Shown piece by piece: positions 2,830 to 37,745 of a stretch of DNA of 63,072 nucleotides; position 1 is the stretch's first letter, and every line of letters starts with the position of its first letter. Made by a program: the position numbers and the translations under genes. This stretch comes from Acidobacteriota bacterium (GTDB lineage Bacteria > Acidobacteriota > Terriglobia > Acidiferrales > UBA7541). Where the stretch lies: NCBI GenBank assembly GCA_003223295.1, contig QHYM01000129.1, positions 1 through 63,072 on the forward strand, given 5' to 3'. Below the pieces are notes generated by a model. That model searched no databases. It saw only the letters and a program-made list of their open reading frames with translations, and was not told the origin of the DNA.

Positions 2830-3612
2830 TCAGTAGAAAGCCACGCCGCCGTCGACGTTGATAGATTGCCCTGTCATTGCGGTCGATTGCTCCGAGCAAA
2901 GGAACAAAGCAGCGCGCGCGATTTCGTCTGCGGTTTGCGCACGGCCCTGCAACAAACCATTCAGAAAGCCCGCCAGTTGCTCTTCCGCGCTGACGCCCAT
3001 TTTCTTTGCCAGGACCGCGCCGAGCTCCTTCGACATTTGCGTTTCCGTGACTGGCCCCGGGCAAATCGCGTTCACGCGCACGCCTTTTCGCGCGCCTTCT
3101 GCCGCCGTCACCCGTGTTAAGCCCAGCATTCCCGCCTTGGCCGCGGCGTAGGCTGAACCCCAGGCGTAGGCCGCCTTCGCGGAAAGGCTGGAAATGTTCA
3201 GGATCACTCCGGAGCCGCGCTCATACATTTCAGGCAGCGCCAGTTTCGACAGCAAGAAAGCCGCGCGCAGATGCACAGCGATGACTTTGTCGAATTCCGC
3301 GAGGGGATACTCTTCCACAGGAACCACGGGACCGTAGTGCCCCGCATTGTTCACCAGGATGTCGATCCTGCCGAATTTTTCGCGAGTTGTAGCGACTACA
3401 TGCGCGCACGCAGCCTCCTGCGTCAAATCCGCGGTTGCGTATTCCGGGCGGCCGCCGCCGTCCGATATTTCCTTTGCGACCGCGGCAAGCTCCTTCTCTG
3501 TGCGCGCGGTAAGAAACACCGCTGCGCCTTCTTTGGCGAACAGATGAGCGATAGCCCGGCCGATTCCTCGGCCGGAGCCGGTAATGAGCGCAACTTGATT
3601 TTTCAGTAGCAT
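2830..3612 (-). CDS. SDR family NAD(P)-dependent oxidoreductase
   Basis: A 260-residue classical short-chain dehydrogenase/reductase. The nucleotide-binding motif TGSGRGIG is at residues 11-18, followed by the NNAG motif, a catalytic Ser in NISSLS and the YxxxK pair in YAAAK. The C-terminus has the usual SDR ending MTGQSINVDGG. It probably carries out an NAD(P)(H)-dependent oxidation or reduction of an alcohol, ketone or acyl substrate in the cytoplasm; the substrate is unknown. The frame extends 13 codons upstream to a TTG, but neither start has a clear ribosome site. The ATG at 3612 puts the Rossmann strand at the family's usual position. It lies 92 bases upstream of the kinase gene on the same strand. 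Confidence 0.9.
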   Translation of the reverse strand: MLLKNQVALITGSGRGIGRAIAHLFAKEGAAVFLTARTEKELAAVAKEISDGGGRPEYATADLTQEAACAHVVATTREKFGRIDILVNNAGHYGPVVPVEEYPLAEFDKVIAVHLRAAFLLSKLALPEMYERGSGVILNISSLSAKAAYAWGSAYAAAKAGMLGLTRVTAAEGARKGVRVNAICPGPVTETQMSKELGAVLAKKMGVSAEEQLAGFLNGLLQGRAQTADEIARAALFLCSEQSTAMTGQSINVDGGVAFY

Positions 3613-3874
3613 GGGGATAATGAGGATAGAAGGGAAGGACCGTCGAGGCAAGGAGTGAAGCGAGCCACAACAATGAAAAGAAAAGCCCTATCCACCCCAA
3701 AGAACAGGAGGAGGCAGTACTGCCGTACCCGGGCGTTTGCCTGATTGCGCATGCAATCGGCGTGGGGGACAATTCAAGAGTGCTGCAGAACATTGACGTT
3801 CGCGTAGAATCATCTGTTGGGCCAATGTAGGTCCTTTTCCCTCCAGCCCTAGATTTGACTCAAAGGTAGAATGC

Positions 3875-17524: not shown

Positions 17525-18055
17525 TCACAGAAGTCCCTTTAAGGCAGACTCAAAAGCATCGGTATATTCAAAGCCGATAATCTTCTTGCGGAGTGCCCCT
17601 TGTCTGTCATAGAGCATCGTGGTCGGTAATCCCTCGATGCCGCCAAACTTCTGTTTCAGTTCATCCGACGCCACGGCCAACGGATAGCGGACTCCGATTC
17701 TCTTGGCAAACAAGAGCGGATCTTCGGTATCCGTCATCGTGTCAAATTTGAATCCGACGACCGCAAGCCCTCGTGAGCCATACCGGTCTAGGAGTCTCTG
17801 GTAGCCAGGCATTTCCTTTTTGCACGGCTGACACCATGTCGCCCAGAAATCGATGAGCACAACCTTGCCTCGCAGGTCGCCCGCGGAAATCTCTCGTCCC
17901 TGCAAATCCTTCATCGAGAAATCAGGCAACCGTGAACCGATCTCACCCGCCGCGATTACAGCCTCTTTCGGCTGTGGAGAACTCGCCGAGTTTTGACTGC
18001 ATCCGGCAAGTCCTGTCGCAGCGAGGCTCAGAACACATAGACGTTTTCTTAGCAT
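17525..18055 (-). CDS. TlpA-like thioredoxin-fold lipoprotein
   Basis: A 176-residue thiol-disulfide oxidoreductase of the TlpA/ResA group. It has a lipoprotein signal ending in the lipobox LAGC (Cys19). The thioredoxin fold contains IDFWATWCQPCKKEMP, with active-site W-C-Q-P-C at residues 74-78, and the cis-Pro loop GLPTTMLYD. Anchored in the periplasm, it would reduce protein disulfides or an oxidised CxxC/UxxU partner. Its ATG directly follows the TAG stop of the HMA selenoprotein gene (TAGATG), with AGAAGGAA as ribosome site inside the upstream gene. Tight coupling makes the HMA protein a likely functional partner. It is the last gene of the four-gene operon. Confidence 0.93.
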   Translation of the reverse strand: MLRKRLCVLSLAATGLAGCSQNSASSPQPKEAVIAAGEIGSRLPDFSMKDLQGREISAGDLRGKVVLIDFWATWCQPCKKEMPGYQRLLDRYGSRGLAVVGFKFDTMTDTEDPLLFAKRIGVRYPLAVASDELKQKFGGIEGLPTTMLYDRQGALRKKIIGFEYTDAFESALKGLL

Positions 18056-18580
18056 CTATTCCTTCTTTTGCACTTCGAGAACCAGCAGCTTGAGGGGTGC
18101 CGAAGGGTCTGCTTTCTTTTTCCCTGCTGGCTTTTTGAACAACTGGCCACCAACTGTGACCATCGTTTGCGTATCCGCGAGGGTTTCAAGCCCTTTCGAC
18201 AACTCATTGGGTGTAAGCACGAAAGACTGATTCGGTGCAACTTGTAAGGCAAGGCCACCCGACGAGTCCTTCACGATTTTTCCGCGTGCGGTCACATCCA
18301 TCTCCGCAGCAGTCACACCACTGTCGTAAGTCGCTTTTAGAAGCTGGGCCGGGTCAATCTGCCCACCTTCTTTGGGCGTGACCTCAACCTTTCCATCGAT
18401 CAGGTTTACATCTACTTTTTGAACGCCAGACTGGCGCCCGAGGTGTTGCTTCACCCCGTATGCTCAAAAGTTTCAAGTCATGCCTTCGACGCGCATTTCA
18501 ATATGCTTGATTTGCGCTTGACTCACCGGCACAACCATCGAACCGAGCAGCGCAAGCAGCGCGAGCTTTTTCGTGTTCAT
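18056..18580 (-). CDS. HMA-domain selenoprotein candidate with UxxU motif (two in-frame TGA)
   Basis: The frame starts at an ATG with strong ribosome site AAGGAG and encodes a signal peptide (MNTKKLALLALLG to about residue 22). A heavy-metal-associated domain follows: MRVEGMT-U36-N-F-U39-AYGVKQHLG, then GVQKVDVNLIDGKVEV. Codons 36 and 39 are TGA (18473-18475 and 18464-18466) exactly where HMA proteins have the metal-binding Cys of GMxCxxC. The rest is open to the TAG at 18056, giving 174 residues counting both TGAs as selenocysteine. A C-terminal extension (about 100-174, Lys/Pro-rich end) is not a known domain to me. Gene callers would start at the GTG at 18454 and lose the motif. Alternatives are decay or sequencing error, but two exact Cys-to-TGA changes with everything else intact favour selenocysteine. 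Confidence 0.82.
18421..18439 (-). other. SECIS-like hairpin candidate
   Basis: In the mRNA, GGGCGCCA-GUC-UGGCGUUC forms an 8-base stem (two G-U pairs) with a GUC loop. The loop G lies 33 bases after the second UGA, within the usual bacterial SECIS range, and the AGUCU apex resembles the GGUCU apex of the E. coli fdhF SECIS. A second hairpin, GGGGUG-AAGCAA-CACCUC, lies between the UGA and this one. The function is inferred. Confidence 0.5.
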
Positions 18581-18598
18581 CTTTTCTCCTTTCTTTTC

Positions 18599-19552
18599 TT
18601 AACGATGCATCCGAAACTGCTGTGTAATTCCGAAGCTGATGTGCCGGCGAACCGGCATGAACATTGCGCCAGTGGAATGCGCCGCGTCCCAGTCCATCCC
18701 GAGCCAGACATGCATTCCGGGACGCACCCCCACATAGGAAGTGATTCCAACCAGCAGCACATCGCCGCCGCTCCCGCTCTGCGTGATGCCTCCTAGGCGC
18801 TCATCCAGGGAATGCAGCCAGGTCAGCGCCGGGCCAATGAACCATTCACGGGCCACGTTCTTCGATTCATAAGGCCTGTACGACAGCCAGAAACGTGATT
18901 CGATGTCGCTGCCGAGGCGTGTTGCCTGCGTTCCCTGTGACCGGATAAGGGCATGGAAATCCTCATCAGCAACAAGACGCTTTAGATTGAACAGCCCGGT
19001 ATAGGTCCAATTTGCCGCCAGAAAAAGATCAGTAGAACCCGAGCCCAGTTGCAAACTCGCAGGCAGTCGTTTCCCGATTGTGTCCGTCAAGCCTGTTCGC
19101 CCTGTCGGGATCTTGGGACCGAATGCGACAGATGCCTGCGTGGTGCCGCGTTCCGAATCACGCCGATAAAACCTGTACTTCACCAGCACCATGGCATCGC
19201 CAAGCCCCGTTCCACCAAGGGTTGGTGCGCTCCCGGTATCAAAGTGAATCGTCACTACCGGAACGAGCACGGTCAAATCAAAATTGCGGTAAAAACCCCA
19301 GGTGAAATTGAAATCGCCTTCATGCGAAAAGGTAGGATGGGCTGTTGCAGGAATGCCGCCCGGGATTCCAAGCATGGGACTTCGAGTCGTGAAAATGGAA
19401 TTGTAGGAAATGAGTCCGCCTCCGGGGAACAGGGGCGGGGCTGTTTCGGGGGCAGGGCCCTGCGCCTTTGCCGGGGCAGCGCAGAGCAGCGGGAGGACCA
19501 CTAGGAATACACCCGCAAATCGCCCAACAGAATATGTATTTCGCATTTTCAC
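18599..19552 (-). CDS. Outer-membrane beta-barrel-type protein of unknown substrate
   Basis: An exported protein of about 317 residues with a signal peptide (VFLVVLPLLCAAPAKAQG). The mature part is rich in alternating aromatic/polar strands and Gly turns (WGFYRNFDLTVLVPVV, GLGDAMVLVKYRFYRR, VWLGMDWDAAHSTG) and ends ISFGITQQFRMHR. This fits an outer-membrane barrel of the type annotated as MetA-pathway-of-phenol-degradation or transporter-like. GTG at 19552 has GGAGGA seven bases upstream and is preferred; an ATG two codons later is possible. The stop is 18 bases before the HMA selenoprotein start, so it is in the same operon. The substrate is unknown. Confidence 0.75.
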   Translation of the reverse strand: MKMRNTYSVGRFAGVFLVVLPLLCAAPAKAQGPAPETAPPLFPGGGLISYNSIFTTRSPMLGIPGGIPATAHPTFSHEGDFNFTWGFYRNFDLTVLVPVVTIHFDTGSAPTLGGTGLGDAMVLVKYRFYRRDSERGTTQASVAFGPKIPTGRTGLTDTIGKRLPASLQLGSGSTDLFLAANWTYTGLFNLKRLVADEDFHALIRSQGTQATRLGSDIESRFWLSYRPYESKNVAREWFIGPALTWLHSLDERLGGITQSGSGGDVLLVGITSYVGVRPGMHVWLGMDWDAAHSTGAMFMPVRRHISFGITQQFRMHR

Positions 19553-19627: not shown

Positions 19628-19981
19628 CTAGATGCGAAGTGGCCGTGGGGCTGGAATGTAACGGATTGGCGGCGCATGACAATGCGCCGTAATCACAGCG
19701 TCGGGGGAATCTAGGCCGGGAGATTTGCCAGCCGCAGGCACCACGCCCAGTGCAACGAAACAGTAGGAAACGCCTTTCACAGAGGCGGGCTGCACAAAAG
19801 GAGCGTGGATCGCTTGCATGGTCTTGCAACAATCCTGCGCGTGATGCCCATGCGACGAGCACGACATCGAGTTGCAGCAGTGCATCGCCTGTTCGGGCGT
19901 TGTTGCCGCGCCACAGTCGAACGCATACGCCGCGAGAGCGACCACCAACAGTGCCAGCAGCATTGGTTTTGCGAAGCTCAC
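19628..19981 (-). CDS. Small secreted Cys/His-rich protein
   Basis: A protein of about 117 residues: a hydrophobic export signal (KPMLLALLVVALAAYAF) and a mature region with clustered soft-metal-type ligands, CCNSMSC-SSHGHHAQDCC-KTM (eight Cys in total after the signal, plus His and Met). A Pro-rich C-terminus follows (AHCHAPPIRYIPAPRPLRI). I do not recognise a named family. The Cys/His/Met composition and its place as first gene of the operon suggest binding of a soft metal such as copper or mercury, or a redox substrate of TlpA. The start is uncertain: GTG at 19981 gives a good signal peptide, but an ATG at 19963 fits better if the predicted promoter just upstream is real. Confidence 0.68.
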   Translation of the reverse strand: MSFAKPMLLALLVVALAAYAFDCGAATTPEQAMHCCNSMSCSSHGHHAQDCCKTMQAIHAPFVQPASVKGVSYCFVALGVVPAAGKSPGLDSPDAVITAHCHAPPIRYIPAPRPLRI

Positions 19982-32803: not shown

Positions 32804-34072
32804 ATGGATCGAAAACTGCGAAACCGGATTGTGCTTTACCTGTTCCTGGCAGTGGTGTTGGCGTTCGTTCTCATCAAGCTGAGCGGGCGAAAACCGGCGC
32901 CGAAGATTTCCGCGGTGACGCCGGTGCGGGAGAACCTGACTTCCTCCATCAGCAGCAATGGAAAAGTTGAGCCTATTTCGCCTTACGTGATGCGGGCGGA
33001 GCTGAACACATTCGTCGAAAAGGTCTACCCCAGCGAAGGGCAGCAGGTGAAAAGGGGCCAACAGCTCCTGGAATTGGATGTAAAGGACGCCGCGGCGCAG
33101 CTCGCCGAAACGCGATCGAAACTGCTGCAGGCGCAGGATGATTTGCGAGCGGCGAGGGCGGGTGGCAGAGCAGACGCGGCTGCGAAGGCCGCGGGCGATC
33201 TGGCAAACGCGCAAAAAGAGCGCGACCGGCTGCAGAAAAATCACGAGGCGTTGCTCCACTTGATTGCCCAGGAGGCGGCGACCCAGGACGAACTGGCGAC
33301 CAACGACCTGGCACTGACCAGGGCGCAGGCGGAAGTAACGAGGCTCACCGCGGCGAAACAGGAATTTGAGCGCGGCGTCAAGCTGGACCGCGATCGCGCA
33401 GTGTTGCAGGTAGAACAATTGAAGAACGAAGCTGCCGCACTCGAAGACAAAGTGCGGCAAGGACGCATCACAGCGCCAGCGGATGGAACGCTGTATTCCC
33501 TTCCGGTGAAGGCCGGGGATTTTGTAAAAGTGGGCGACTCCCTGGCGGAGATGGCGGACTTGCACAAGGTGCGCGTGCGGGCGTTTATCGATGAGCCGGA
33601 TCTGGGCGGGCTGGAAGAGAATGAGCCCGTAAAAATCACCTGGGACGCGCTGCCGAACAAGACGTGGTCCGGCAAAACCGAAATCATTCCAAAACAGGTG
33701 GTGCAACGAAATACGCGGAGCGTTGGCGAATTGCTGTGTTCGGTGAAAAACGACAAACTGGAACTGCTGCCGAATATCAACGTAAACGTGCGCATCAATT
33801 CGAGGGAGCGCCTCGGGGTGCTGTCCGTGCCTCGGGGAGCCGTGGAAGTCGAAGGCGGGCGGCGCTATGTGTACGTGGTGAAATCGAACCAGCTTGGCGT
33901 AGGGAAGTCCACGCTGGAGAAGCGAGAGATCCACGTAGGCATCGCGGACGCCACGAACTATGAAGTGGTGAGCGGCCTGGAGGAGGGCGAATTGGTGGCG
34001 TTGCCGGGCGACGTGGATCTGCGCGACGGAATGAACGTGATTGTGGTGAGCACATCCGTGGAGAATTCTTAG
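32804..34072 (+). CDS. Efflux periplasmic adaptor (HlyD/MacA-like membrane fusion protein)
   Basis: A 422-residue membrane fusion protein: an inner-membrane anchor (IVLYLFLAVVLAFVLIKL, about 9-26), then a lipoyl/barrel-sandwich half-motif (VEKVYPSEGQQVKRGQQLLE). A long coiled-coil hairpin runs from about 85 to 205, the second half-motif is ITAPADGTLYSLPVKAGDFV, and beta-barrel and membrane-proximal domains follow. It would link an inner-membrane transporter to a TolC channel. The ribosome site is AGGA before ATTC-ATG. Downstream, on the same strand, are a TPR protein, a MacB-like permease and a TolC-like protein. No ATPase is in the set. Confidence 0.92.
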   Translation: MDRKLRNRIVLYLFLAVVLAFVLIKLSGRKPAPKISAVTPVRENLTSSISSNGKVEPISPYVMRAELNTFVEKVYPSEGQQVKRGQQLLELDVKDAAAQLAETRSKLLQAQDDLRAARAGGRADAAAKAAGDLANAQKERDRLQKNHEALLHLIAQEAATQDELATNDLALTRAQAEVTRLTAAKQEFERGVKLDRDRAVLQVEQLKNEAAALEDKVRQGRITAPADGTLYSLPVKAGDFVKVGDSLAEMADLHKVRVRAFIDEPDLGGLEENEPVKITWDALPNKTWSGKTEIIPKQVVQRNTRSVGELLCSVKNDKLELLPNINVNVRINSRERLGVLSVPRGAVEVEGGRRYVYVVKSNQLGVGKSTLEKREIHVGIADATNYEVVSGLEEGELVALPGDVDLRDGMNVIVVSTSVENS

Positions 34073-34082
34073 GGAACAACGA

Positions 34083-35078
34083 ATGGTTCGATGGAGCAAG
34101 CTGGCGTTTGCAATTGCATTTCTGGCGAGCACGGCGCTCGCGGCGACAAAAGTAAAATTCGATGCAAGTTTGGCCGAAGCACGCAGGGCTTACGAAGCAA
34201 GCGACTACACGAGGGCCATCCAAGTCCTGCAGGAAGCTGCGGCTAAAGAGCCGCAAAACGGGGACATCCAGTTGCTACTGGCGAAAAGTTACCTGGAACT
34301 CCAGGAACTTGATGCGGCCATCCGCAGCGCGGAGAAGGCCGTGGCGATCGATCCGCAGAATTCCGTGTATCACGAGTGGCTGGGAAGAGCCTATGGCGAA
34401 AAGGCTGATAAGGTTGTCTGGCCCCCCACGAGGATCGCTCTGGCCAAGAAAACCGGGAAGGAATTTGAAAGTGCGGTCGTGTTGGATGGGAAGAATTTCT
34501 CGGCCCGCCAGGTGCTGATCGAATTTGATTGCAGCGCTCCGGGCATGGTGGGCGGAGGGGAAGATAAGGCGCAGCCGCACATCAAGGAATTGATGGAGTT
34601 GGACACCGCAGAAGGCCACTATGCCGCCGGGAATTGCCGCAGGCAAAAAAAAGAATTCGCCGCTGCGGATGAACAGTTCACCAAAGCCCTGGAGAGCAAG
34701 CCGAAATCGGCGGAGCTAATCTACGACATTGGCGACTATGCAGTGAAGCGCGAGCAGGCGGAGCGGTTGATTGCCGTGGCGGATGTTGGGGAGCGCGCGG
34801 CACCGACTGATCCCCGGGGCAGGTTTTACCGTGGCGTGGGGCTGGTTTTGCAAAAAGAGAAATTGGAAGAAGCCGAGCGCTTGTTGCAGGAGTATGCGAG
34901 GAGAGCTCCGAAAAGGAACGGATACCCGTCTCCAGCGGCGGCGCACGCTTGGCTGGGCCGTTTGTATGAAGGCAAAGGCGACACGGAGAATGCGAAGAAA
35001 GAATTCGAGAACGCACTCAGGTTGGATCCCAAGAATAAAATCGCGCAGGAAGAGTTGAAGAAACTCAAGAAGCGTTAA
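34083..35078 (+). CDS. Periplasmic TPR protein in the export cluster
   Basis: A 331-residue protein with a signal peptide (LAFAIAFLASTALAATK), followed by TPR repeats: ARRAYEASDYTRAIQVLQEA, LAKSYLELQELDAAIRSAEK, ADEQFTKALESKPKSAELIY, AHAWLGRLYEGKGDTENAKK. A central insertion (about 110-190) with DCSAPGMVGGGEDKA breaks the repeat pattern. TPRs mediate protein contacts; here it could assemble or gate the tripartite pump. It starts 10 bases after the adaptor gene and occupies the position where the MacB-type ATPase is expected. Confidence 0.83.
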   Translation: MVRWSKLAFAIAFLASTALAATKVKFDASLAEARRAYEASDYTRAIQVLQEAAAKEPQNGDIQLLLAKSYLELQELDAAIRSAEKAVAIDPQNSVYHEWLGRAYGEKADKVVWPPTRIALAKKTGKEFESAVVLDGKNFSARQVLIEFDCSAPGMVGGGEDKAQPHIKELMELDTAEGHYAAGNCRRQKKEFAAADEQFTKALESKPKSAELIYDIGDYAVKREQAERLIAVADVGERAAPTDPRGRFYRGVGLVLQKEKLEEAERLLQEYARRAPKRNGYPSPAAAHAWLGRLYEGKGDTENAKKEFENALRLDPKNKIAQEELKKLKKR

Positions 35079-35139
35079 GCATTTTCTCCGAGCTACTGCT
35101 CTGGCTAGCGCTCTAAAGTTCTTGCGGCAATAGAAGACG

Positions 35140-36342
35140 ATGCATATCCGAGAGACCGTAACGGTGGCCATCGACGCGCTGCGCTCGAATAAACTGCGCG
35201 CGGCGCTGACCTCTCTCGGAGTCATCATTGGAAGTGCCTCCATCGTTCTGGTTGTGACGGTGGCGCTGACCAGCAAGAAATATGTTCTTTCACAGATCGA
35301 GGCGGTGGGGTCAAACCTTTTGTGGGTGGAATTGGTCAGAAGCTCGGACAAGCCCCAGCCGCTGAGCTATGAGCTGACCATCGACGATATGAACACACTG
35401 AAGGCGGGAATTCCCAATGTGGCCGAAGCCGCGGGGATTCGTGAACTGCCGATGGCAGTAGTAGTTCCCGGGGGAACTTCACGAGCAGTGAACTTGATTG
35501 GCGTGACGGAAGGGTATCAAGCCATCCGGCGGCTCGTGATTTCGCGGGGACGGTATTTTGACTCCGTTGACATGCAGATGCGCAGCAAGTTTTGTCTGAT
35601 CACGGGACCGCTAGCGGAGCGCGTCTTCGGGACCGAGAATCCTGTCGGCAAAAACATTCGCATGGGGGAACTGACGTTCACAGTTATTGGGGTATTCCGG
35701 GAACGTGCTTCGACCTTTGGGCAATCGGAGGTTCACGACTATTCAGTGATTATCCCTTTTACGCTCATGAAATACTATACCGGGACCGACGTGCTGAGGA
35801 CGATGTACGTGCAAGCGGCGAGGCCGGAGAGCGTGGAGAGCGTACAGCGGCAAATGGCGCAATTGCTGCGCAGCCGCCATCCTGCCGAGGCGGAGTATGA
35901 CGTACAAACGCTGACGGCAATTTTGGATGTAGCGAGAAAGATTTCTCTGGGGCTGACGGTTGTGCTGGTGATTATCGCGGCGATTGCGCTGCTTGTCAGC
36001 GGAATCGGGATCATGAACATCATGCTGGTGACGGTGACGGAGCGGACGCGCGAAATCGGGATCCGCAAGGCGATTGGCGCGGCGCAGCGGGAGATCCTGT
36101 ATCAATTCCTGGTGGAATCCTTTTTGATCAGCGGCGGAGGAGCTGTGATTGGGATCTTGATTGGGCTCGCTATGCCCGTCGTGGCGCAGTACTTTTTGCC
36201 TGGGAATTTGCGGGTGCCGGTGTCACCTCTGAGCGTGGTGATCGCCTTTGTGGTGTCCTGCTCGACGGGCTTGTTCTTTGGGTATTTGCCGGCCAACCAG
36301 GCGGCGAGCCTGCAGCCCGTGGAGTCCCTGCGGTATGAGTAA
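35140..36342 (+). CDS. MacB/FtsX-like ABC transporter permease (no ATPase domain)
   Basis: A 400-residue permease: the MacB periplasmic core type, with a first helix (TSLGVIIGSASIVLVVTVAL), a large extracytoplasmic domain (about 50-270) and three C-terminal FtsX helices. These carry SGIGIMNIMLVTVTERTREIGIRKAIG, here cited as separate parts: GIGIMNIMLV and ERTREIGIRKAIGA. The protein ends LQPVESLRYE. True MacB has the ATPase fused at the N-terminus; here there is only the permease part. Such permeases need a separate ATPase subunit, and none is encoded in the cluster. Confidence 0.9.
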   Translation: MHIRETVTVAIDALRSNKLRAALTSLGVIIGSASIVLVVTVALTSKKYVLSQIEAVGSNLLWVELVRSSDKPQPLSYELTIDDMNTLKAGIPNVAEAAGIRELPMAVVVPGGTSRAVNLIGVTEGYQAIRRLVISRGRYFDSVDMQMRSKFCLITGPLAERVFGTENPVGKNIRMGELTFTVIGVFRERASTFGQSEVHDYSVIIPFTLMKYYTGTDVLRTMYVQAARPESVESVQRQMAQLLRSRHPAEAEYDVQTLTAILDVARKISLGLTVVLVIIAAIALLVSGIGIMNIMLVTVTERTREIGIRKAIGAAQREILYQFLVESFLISGGGAVIGILIGLAMPVVAQYFLPGNLRVPVSPLSVVIAFVVSCSTGLFFGYLPANQAASLQPVESLRYE

Positions 36343-36401
36343 TGAAAAGCATTACGAGTTAGGGGTCAGAGATTCTTGAGTTGCGGCCAAGGAGCTTGAA
36401 G

Positions 36402-37745
36402 ATGCAATTGCTTCGAACCGTTGTGAGCGTTGCGACCTTGACGACTTTGTGTGGTGGTGCGCGGGCGCAAGAGAGCCCCACGCCGAAACCAGCGGAGCCG
36501 AGCGCGCAAACCGGGGGCGCTGCGCCGGTCGCCGTAACGTTGAAGCGCGCGATCGAGCTGGCGCTGCAGAACAGCAAAGAAATTCAGGTGGCGAAGATAC
36601 AAGCAAACGTGGCGAATCATGCGGCACAAATCACGAAGGCGCAATTCATGCCTAATCTCTATGCCGGTTCCGGAGCAGGTTATACCAACGGCATACCGGA
36701 AACGCCGGGCGGGCGAGCGCCCTCGGTGTTTAACGTGACGTATACGGAACAGGTCTTCAACGAGCCGCTGCGCGGCCAGGCCAAAGAGATGCAAGAGCAG
36801 GCCAAGGCACAGAAGATCGCACTGGAGGAAGCGAAGAGCAGCGTCATTACCCGGACGGCGATGGCGTACCTCGAACTTGGAAAAGTGCGGCATTCGCTGG
36901 AGCTGTTGCGGGCAGAGCAGGAAAGCGCGGAGAAGATTCTCCAGGTAACCCAGGAGCGGCAAGGCGAAGGACTCGAATTGCCGGTGGAAGTGACGAAGGC
37001 GCAATTGACCAAGGCGCGGGTGGTGCAGCGCGTTCTGCAGTTGGAAGAGCGAGAAGATGAATTAGAAGTTTTTTTGGCGTACCAGTTGGGATTGCCGGAG
37101 GCGCAAGCCATCGAAGTCACGCCGGAAGATCTTCCTGGTGAGGCGGAGCAGGCGGGCGACAACCTGATCGCGGCGGCGCTGGCGAACAACACCGGATTGC
37201 GGCTGGCGGAGTCCGACGTGCGCGCCAAGGAATTCCGGCTGAAAGGGGAACGCCGCGGCTATTTCCCTACGCTCGAGCTGGTGAGCGTGTACAGTGTCCT
37301 GGCGAAATTCAATAATTATTCGCAATTCTTCAACAGCTTCCAACGGAACAATTTCAATGCTGGAATCGATATGCGCGTGCCGATCTTTAGCGCGCAAACG
37401 AGAGCGAACATCGGACTGGCTCAGGTGAATCTGGATGCGGCAAAAGCCAGCCTATCCAATAAGAGAAGTGAAGTGACTGCCGATGTAAGACAGAAGACGC
37501 GGCGCGTGCGCGAAACCGACGCGGCCAAAGAGGTGGCACGGCTGGAGTTGCAGCTTGCCCAGCAAAATGTAGCGGTGTTGCAGGCCCAGTTTGGCGAAGG
37601 AAAGTTGAACCTGCGGGACATGGAAAAGGCTCGATTGGAAGAAAACGACAAGTGGATGGCCTACCTGGATGCAAACTTTCAGAAGCAGCAGGCGCAGTTG
37701 GATCTACTCAAGACGGCTGGGCAACTGGATAAGGTTTGGCAGTAA
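36402..37745 (+). CDS. TolC family outer-membrane efflux protein
   Basis: A 447-residue outer-membrane factor with a signal peptide (VVSVATLTTLCGGARAQ). Two OEP domains form the alpha-helical/beta-barrel tunnel, with typical repeats AIELALQNSKEIQVAKIQAN and a second half with LRLAESDVRAKEFRLKGER and FNAGIDMRVPIFSAQTRANI. The start ATG at 36402 has AAGGAG seven bases upstream; a TTG seven codons earlier is not needed. It is the last component of the adaptor-TPR-permease-TolC cluster and would complete a tripartite export path across the envelope. Confidence 0.92.
   Translation: MQLLRTVVSVATLTTLCGGARAQESPTPKPAEPSAQTGGAAPVAVTLKRAIELALQNSKEIQVAKIQANVANHAAQITKAQFMPNLYAGSGAGYTNGIPETPGGRAPSVFNVTYTEQVFNEPLRGQAKEMQEQAKAQKIALEEAKSSVITRTAMAYLELGKVRHSLELLRAEQESAEKILQVTQERQGEGLELPVEVTKAQLTKARVVQRVLQLEEREDELEVFLAYQLGLPEAQAIEVTPEDLPGEAEQAGDNLIAAALANNTGLRLAESDVRAKEFRLKGERRGYFPTLELVSVYSVLAKFNNYSQFFNSFQRNNFNAGIDMRVPIFSAQTRANIGLAQVNLDAAKASLSNKRSEVTADVRQKTRRVRETDAAKEVARLELQLAQQNVAVLQAQFGEGKLNLRDMEKARLEENDKWMAYLDANFQKQQAQLDLLKTAGQLDKVWQ

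Follow-up and report, generated by a model that had tools for sequence, protein, structure and literature searches.

A probable HMA-domain selenoprotein with a Sec-x-x-Sec site and a conserved two-hairpin RNA in an Acidobacteriota genome

We describe a gene of an Acidobacteriota bacterium (GenBank assembly GCA_003223295.1) that very probably encodes a periplasmic HMA-domain selenoprotein, with a Sec-x-x-Sec site that would bind a soft metal (Hg or Cu) and a TlpA-like neighbour that would keep the selenocysteine pair reduced. It lies in a 63,072-nt stretch of contig QHYM01000129.1, analysed as a whole and called the window here. Comparison among homologues shows that UGA or Cys is retained at both in-frame TGA codons and that the RNA following them is conserved, and this comparative evidence strongly supports reading both codons as selenocysteine. 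The two-hairpin RNA downstream probably directs their recoding. In such a protein both sulfurs of the classic copper/mercury-type site would be replaced by selenium.

The gene and its signals lie on the minus strand:

18056..18580, minus strand: coding sequence of the predicted HMA (U36xxU39) selenoprotein, 174 aa, TAG stop; Sec assigned by comparison
18473..18475, minus strand: first putative Sec codon, TGA, residue 36; TGA in 17/17 close relatives
18464..18466, minus strand: second putative Sec codon, TGA, residue 39; TGA in 17/17 close relatives
18586..18592, minus strand: ribosome-binding site AAAGGAG, 5 nt ahead of the ATG

Read from 18580 to 18056, the frame is 174 codons long. Its sole internal stops are the TGAs at codons 36 and 39, and its closing TAG is directly abutted by the ATG of a tlpA-like gene. 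A first-pass annotation had described a frame behind a strong ribosome site, broken only by two TGAs at exactly the two Cys positions of the HMA motif and ending against tlpA. The frame itself, its match to PF00403, the AAAGGAG sequence and the TAG-ATG junction bear out this description. It had also predicted that an ordinary gene caller would start at the GTG at 18454, as the mechanical ORF list indeed does, giving a product of 132 aa from which the motif and the signal peptide of the selenoprotein are lost. The list thereby reads the TGAs as real stops, which would mean either gene decay or translation of a short peptide followed by a product restarted at GTG 18454, a reading that we consider very improbable in view of the relatives.

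A scan of genome contigs returned 17 close loci, all from Acidobacteria-type MAGs and on 17 different contigs. Each carries TGA AA[CT] TTT TGA (UNFU) at the same codons and has no other internal stop, so the random stops elsewhere in homologues that the first-pass annotation had named as counter-evidence are absent from 17/17 close relatives. No close relative with Cys was returned, although one scan pattern carried Cys at both sites. Because both TGAs are kept on 17 different contigs with no further internal stop, chance is a very unlikely explanation. Compared with the window, the 14 codons ahead of the TGAs have a median dN/dS of 0.00 (n = 15 comparisons); the remainder of the HMA domain has 0.08 (n = 17) and the C-terminal domain has 0.18 (n = 16). 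These low values on both sides of the TGAs argue against real stops, as do the identical double TGA of the close relatives, the Cys found at those columns in other homologues and the conserved RNA hairpins, both of which are described below.

The assembly from which the window comes totals 6.03 Mb in 481 contigs, is 95.2% complete and contains the whole Sec machinery. The first-pass annotation had pointed to selA, selB, selC (tRNA-Sec) and selD as the genes to look for, and their absence as grounds for giving up its reading; all four were found over their cut-offs, with 571 bits for SelA, 350 bits for SelB, 349 bits for SelD and 64.9 bits for tRNA-Sec (cut-off 47), the last in agreement with ARAGORN (anticodon TCA). 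Two identical tRNA-Sec copies (L009 6468-6825) lie on either side of an N run; two tandem genes were rejected as an explanation, the pair being probably a single gene that was copied during scaffolding. The SelD gene (L094, G000:C136:8380-9342, minus strand) has one in-frame TGA near its N-terminus, so SelD is probably a selenoprotein too.

The sequence gives only the codon, which leaves room for TGA being read as another amino acid, such as Trp or Cys, by a suppressor tRNA and with no selenium involved. We find this scarcely credible, given the complete Sec machinery of the genome and a conserved RNA that fits SECIS. Furthermore, TGA is the stop codon of the adjacent tlpA-like gene, and hence is not reassigned genome-wide.

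Across the phylum, among the matches listed, SelB was over its cut-off in 254 of 396 sampled genomes, and in 17 of 20 TGA-bearing genomes (presence read from E-values of 5.1e-90 or lower) against 237 of 376 others (p = 0.055). The enrichment is weak because SelB is already so widespread in the sample, and co-occurrence with SelB was dropped as proof. The three TGA-bearing genomes without SelB over cut-off, among the matches listed, were G290, G110 and G266; SelA is present in the first two, and G266 (72% complete) has neither SelA nor, among the matches listed, SelB over cut-off. Matches to tRNA-Sec near the cut-off were not telling, with 7 of 10 genomes tested passing. Genomes G147 and G382 pass this cut-off, yet have no SelB over cut-off among the matches listed; the tRNA-Sec-like gene of G147 (C50:91833-91917, 58.6 bits) is perhaps a relic.

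More distant relatives were sought in the 396 genomes drawn from the phylum. A match was found in 109 of them, many being ordinary HMA proteins, and 33 places held a TGA, the frames being inspected at all of these. At 23 the TGA falls at motif columns, with no further stop in the match (14 UxxU, 7 UxxC and 2 CxxU genes, in 20 genomes); the remaining 10 places belong to proteins with a CxxC motif, and here the TGA is found at the protein end or past it. The other homologues in the phylum sample have Cys at the motif columns. TGA and Cys are thus exchanged at both positions, the very comparison by which the first-pass annotation had proposed to judge its reading, and the in-frame UGA is aligned with Cys of homologues, the pattern by which a bacterial selenoprotein is recognised. 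Along with the Sec machinery and the conserved SECIS-like RNA, this exchange supports the original proposal that the TGAs stand for selenocysteine.

In a tree of 37 rows, which excludes L043, L045, L047, L076 and 14 of the 17 close relatives, the four motif states require 8 changes, where 3 would be the least possible; 4 of the 8 are for UxxU, with 2 of these 4 forced by well-supported branches; the deep branches of this tree are weak and some long branches meet. A single phylum offers a natural series (UxxU, UxxC, CxxU and CxxC) for testing the gain that selenium brings to metal binding. Genome G377 carries a UxxC copy and a CxxC copy side by side. At L066 two adjoining paralogues (2121-2564 and 3115-3639), with UPFC and CPFC and near a MerR-type regulator, form a natural Sec/Cys pair. 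A plasmid search gave 26 records, all of less than 60% identity and none covering 80% of the query; the best 20 of the 26 are annotated as MerP, P-type ATPase or HMA-domain proteins.

The protein has three predicted parts:

18515..18580, minus strand: probable signal peptide, residues 1-22, judged from sequence
18308..18511, minus strand: HMA domain, residues 24-91, from Pfam (29-71), the AF2 model and fold matches
18059..18307, minus strand: C-terminal beta domain, residues 92-174, possibly OB-like, from the AF2 model and weak matches to YgiW 1nnx and 3klw

Of the signal peptide and HMA domain claimed at first, the domain stands, with PF00403 above its gathering cut-off (34.1 bits vs 24.8), and the signal peptide is rated probable. 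The AlphaFold2 model (18 rows) has a mean pLDDT of 75, falling to about 60 around the HMA motif, and its HMA part gives fold matches to Atx1, CopZ and MerP structures (MerP: 1osd, 1afi). The C-terminal part, possibly a five-stranded OB barrel, has no Pfam match; in the whole-protein model it gives a weak Foldseek match to YgiW (1nnx, E 3.7e-3) and a weak OB-fold match to 3klw (Z 5.1 over 72 residues).

The first-pass annotation had left open whether a UxxU HMA protein had been described before. One has: a table in PMC13188914 catalogues NF041115 (UxxU_metal_bind), a family of UxxU metal-binding selenoproteins with two Sec, so that the UxxU motif itself is not new. On that description, both NF041115 and the window protein carry an HMA-type domain with a Sec-x-x-Sec motif. 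The NF041115 model, however, is a single 74-position domain with which the window protein reaches 35.6 of the 95 bits required, and the window protein adds the C-terminal beta domain and an operon with TlpA and a beta-rich protein. Ten distant relatives scanned score 27.0-52.8 bits with NF041115, likewise below the cut-off of 95, and fall below the MerP cut-off too. MerP (TIGR02052) resembles the window protein in its secreted HMA domain and CxxC-type site, and MerP structures are among the fold matches; the window protein differs in having two domains and scores 34.2 bits against a cut-off of 92.55, and no mer genes were seen beside its gene. A 'Mercuric transport protein MerP' appears as a selenoprotein in a GOS survey table (PMC2398784). 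The MerT/CopZ fusion-like heavy metal transport selenoprotein NF045683 shares an HMA-like part (model positions 159-229), but that family is fused to MerT and the window protein scores 32.7 bits against its cut-off of 375. A literature search, with subscription journals thinly covered, did not find the two-domain HMA/beta subfamily described among the papers listed.

Downstream of the tandem UGAs the transcript is predicted to form two hairpins:

18440..18457, minus strand: hairpin 1 of the putative SECIS region, GGGGUG-AAGCAA-CACCUC, with compensatory changes in homologues
18421..18439, minus strand: hairpin 2, probable SelB-binding hairpin, GGGCGCCA-GUC-UGGCGUUC, with its apical loop spaced 32 nt from the second UGA

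The bSECIS model, as set out in PMC13188914, has an apical loop of 3-9 nt with G in the first two positions, a stem of 4-16 bp, a UGA-loop spacing of 16-37 nt and an MFE of at most -7.5 kcal/mol. By these limits hairpin 2, with its 3-nt loop GUC, its 8 bp stem with G-U pairs and its energy of -9.8 kcal/mol, fits in loop, stem and energy, and its spacing is inside the range for the second UGA (32 nt) and outside it for the first (41 nt). Unlike that model, the window has an extra hairpin between the UGAs and the SECIS-like hairpin.

Conservation at the nucleotide level was examined in 18 close sequences (the 17 relatives and the window) and in 14 UxxU genes (the window and 13 distant ones). In the close set, a six-codon stretch, +13 to +18 counted from the first TGA (CGC CAG TCT GGC GTT CAA), is nearly frozen. 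Of its testable synonymous columns 5/5 show no variation, compared with 3/38 elsewhere (before the TGAs or beyond +18), giving a Fisher p of 5.8e-5 for a stretch that was picked after inspecting the columns. These frozen columns form the GUC-loop hairpin, hairpin 2. All 14 UxxU genes have a CGCC..GGCG hairpin at 31-32 nt, with energies of -7.9 to -11.0 kcal/mol that synonymous shuffles reach in 0-12% of cases. As controls 13 Cys homologues were run; L045, where the motif had been picked inside the signal peptide, was excluded, and 2 of the 12 usable ones (L032, L041) have a hairpin in range at -7.5 kcal/mol or lower. Five of the seven UxxC genes (L033, L036, L046, L072, L076) carry a hairpin spaced 17 nt downstream of the lone UGA, with three reaching -7.5 kcal/mol and the other two at -7.2 and -6.5; L066 has one of -5.0 kcal/mol at 23 nt and L071 none. 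The two CxxU (CGNU) genes, L040 and L069, show a hairpin of only -1.2 kcal/mol and do not fit the SECIS model.

RNAalifold, applied to the 14 UxxU genes in a gap-free alignment, returned both hairpins, with double changes in 5 of 12 pairs. Paired cells amount to 90.7%, against a shuffled mean of 80.9 and 35-50% in slid controls, and neither this value nor the covariation score was equalled in any of 500 shuffles. Two of the five measures in the shuffle test are weaker, namely doubly changed pairs (reached by 45/500 shuffles) and further pair types (42/500), and the pair counts lean towards structure, since the structure was chosen on these same sequences. In hairpin 2, four core pairs are invariant throughout the alignment. 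Hairpin 1 has AGCC..GGCU in place of GGGG..CCCU in L042, L044 and L068; all these flipped pairs come from three related genes and may thus represent one event. Its register is shifted in the window and in L067.

A covariance model, R1, was built from the 14 UxxU genes, which include the window, a near relative of the 17 close loci. It scores 55-68 bits on 17/17 of these, none of which was used in building it. On 22 loci whose homologues are of the Cys, UxxC or CxxU type its scores do not exceed 26 bits. Across the 396 genomes its hits are the 14 training genes plus a single other match (G254, E 3.6e-5), which was taken as probable chance, there being no tandem-UGA HMA frame at that place. Folding of single sequences is modestly better than that of shuffles (z -1.15 to -2.34; p < 0.05 in 10 of the 18 close sequences). 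On the 18 close sequences RNAalifold keeps hairpin 2 and gives a different consensus elsewhere, with no double changes. In the window UUUUGAGC can also pair with GUUCAAAA to give a third stem; it was dropped because, judged by eye, distant homologues do not keep it.

From the comparative evidence, SelB, the Sec-tRNA and a SECIS just downstream would recode both UGAs. We suggest more tentatively, as a possibility we lean somewhat against, that the RNA is a dedicated two-hairpin SECIS, with hairpin 2 as the SelB site and hairpin 1 as an adjustable spacer, and that its product is a diselenolate of very high affinity for soft metals. With the first UGA in the A site, a folded hairpin 1 would shorten the effective distance to hairpin 2; once the second UGA came up, the ribosome would melt hairpin 1 so that 32 nt remain, and a single SelB site could then serve two UGAs three codons apart. 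The layout is common to the 14 UxxU genes across the phylum and differs from that of 5/7 UxxC genes, whose hairpin is spaced 17 nt from the UGA. Among the papers listed by literature searches, in which subscription journals were thinly covered, there was no description of a two-hairpin SECIS for tandem UGAs and nothing on two UGA codons with a SECIS. With its compensatory changes, the RNA offers a test of one bacterial SECIS recoding two nearby UGAs.

The gene lies within an apparent operon, the other members being:

17525..18055, minus strand: TlpA/ResA-like protein with a WCQPC motif, lipobox LAGC by eye; directly downstream in 17/17 close relatives
18599..19546, minus strand: beta-strand-rich secreted protein, outer-membrane-barrel-like by eye, start approximate; upstream in 17/17 close relatives
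19628..19981, minus strand: small Cys/His/Met-rich secreted protein, probable GTG start; upstream in 14/17 close relatives

The trio of beta-rich protein, HMA selenoprotein and TlpA-like protein occurs in 17/17 close relatives, with the beta-rich protein cut by the contig end at L058. The beta-rich protein has no Pfam or NCBIfam match, and its predicted structure has a mean pLDDT of 35. The protein at 19628-19981 (minus strand) is rich in Cys, His and Met (HCCNSMSCSSHGHH..DCCKTM) and possibly metal-binding. Among 46 distant loci tested, relatives of the beta-rich protein were found in 16 and TlpA relatives in 8 (L020, L021, L032, L040, L041, L042, L044, L045).

The company of a TlpA-like gene, next downstream in 17/17 close relatives and present at 8/46 distant loci, would also suit a redox role, in which the UxxU pair of the same selenoprotein is a diselenide/diselenol partner of TlpA instead of a metal ligand; moreover, according to PMC9312934, a redox function is presumed for the majority of selenoproteins in prokaryotes. 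We regard a redox centre as rather unlikely, as the fold is of the metallochaperone type and MerR-like, MerT-like and CopZ-type genes adjoin some distant relatives. MerR-type regulators, below family cut-offs, stand beside L066 and L072; L034 has as neighbours a MerT-like gene and a CsoR-type repressor (below cut-offs) and a CopZ-type Fe-S metallochaperone (over cut-off); and L046 and L084 have similar metal-type neighbours, recognised by eye only. No MerR, MerT or ATPase gene lies beside the window operon, so the identity of the metal rests on these relatives.

In the preferred reading, that of a soft-metal site, the exported protein would bind a soft ion through two selenolates, and the fold together with the neighbours of relatives suggests Hg(II) or Cu(I) as the most likely ion. 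The adjacent TlpA-like lipoprotein would probably maintain the Se-Se pair in reduced form. As further members of the operon, the beta-rich protein and the one rich in Cys, His and Met may likewise serve metal handling in the envelope. Elsewhere in the window, at 32804-37745 on the plus strand, there is an apparent HlyD/TPR/MacB/outer-membrane-factor efflux operon.
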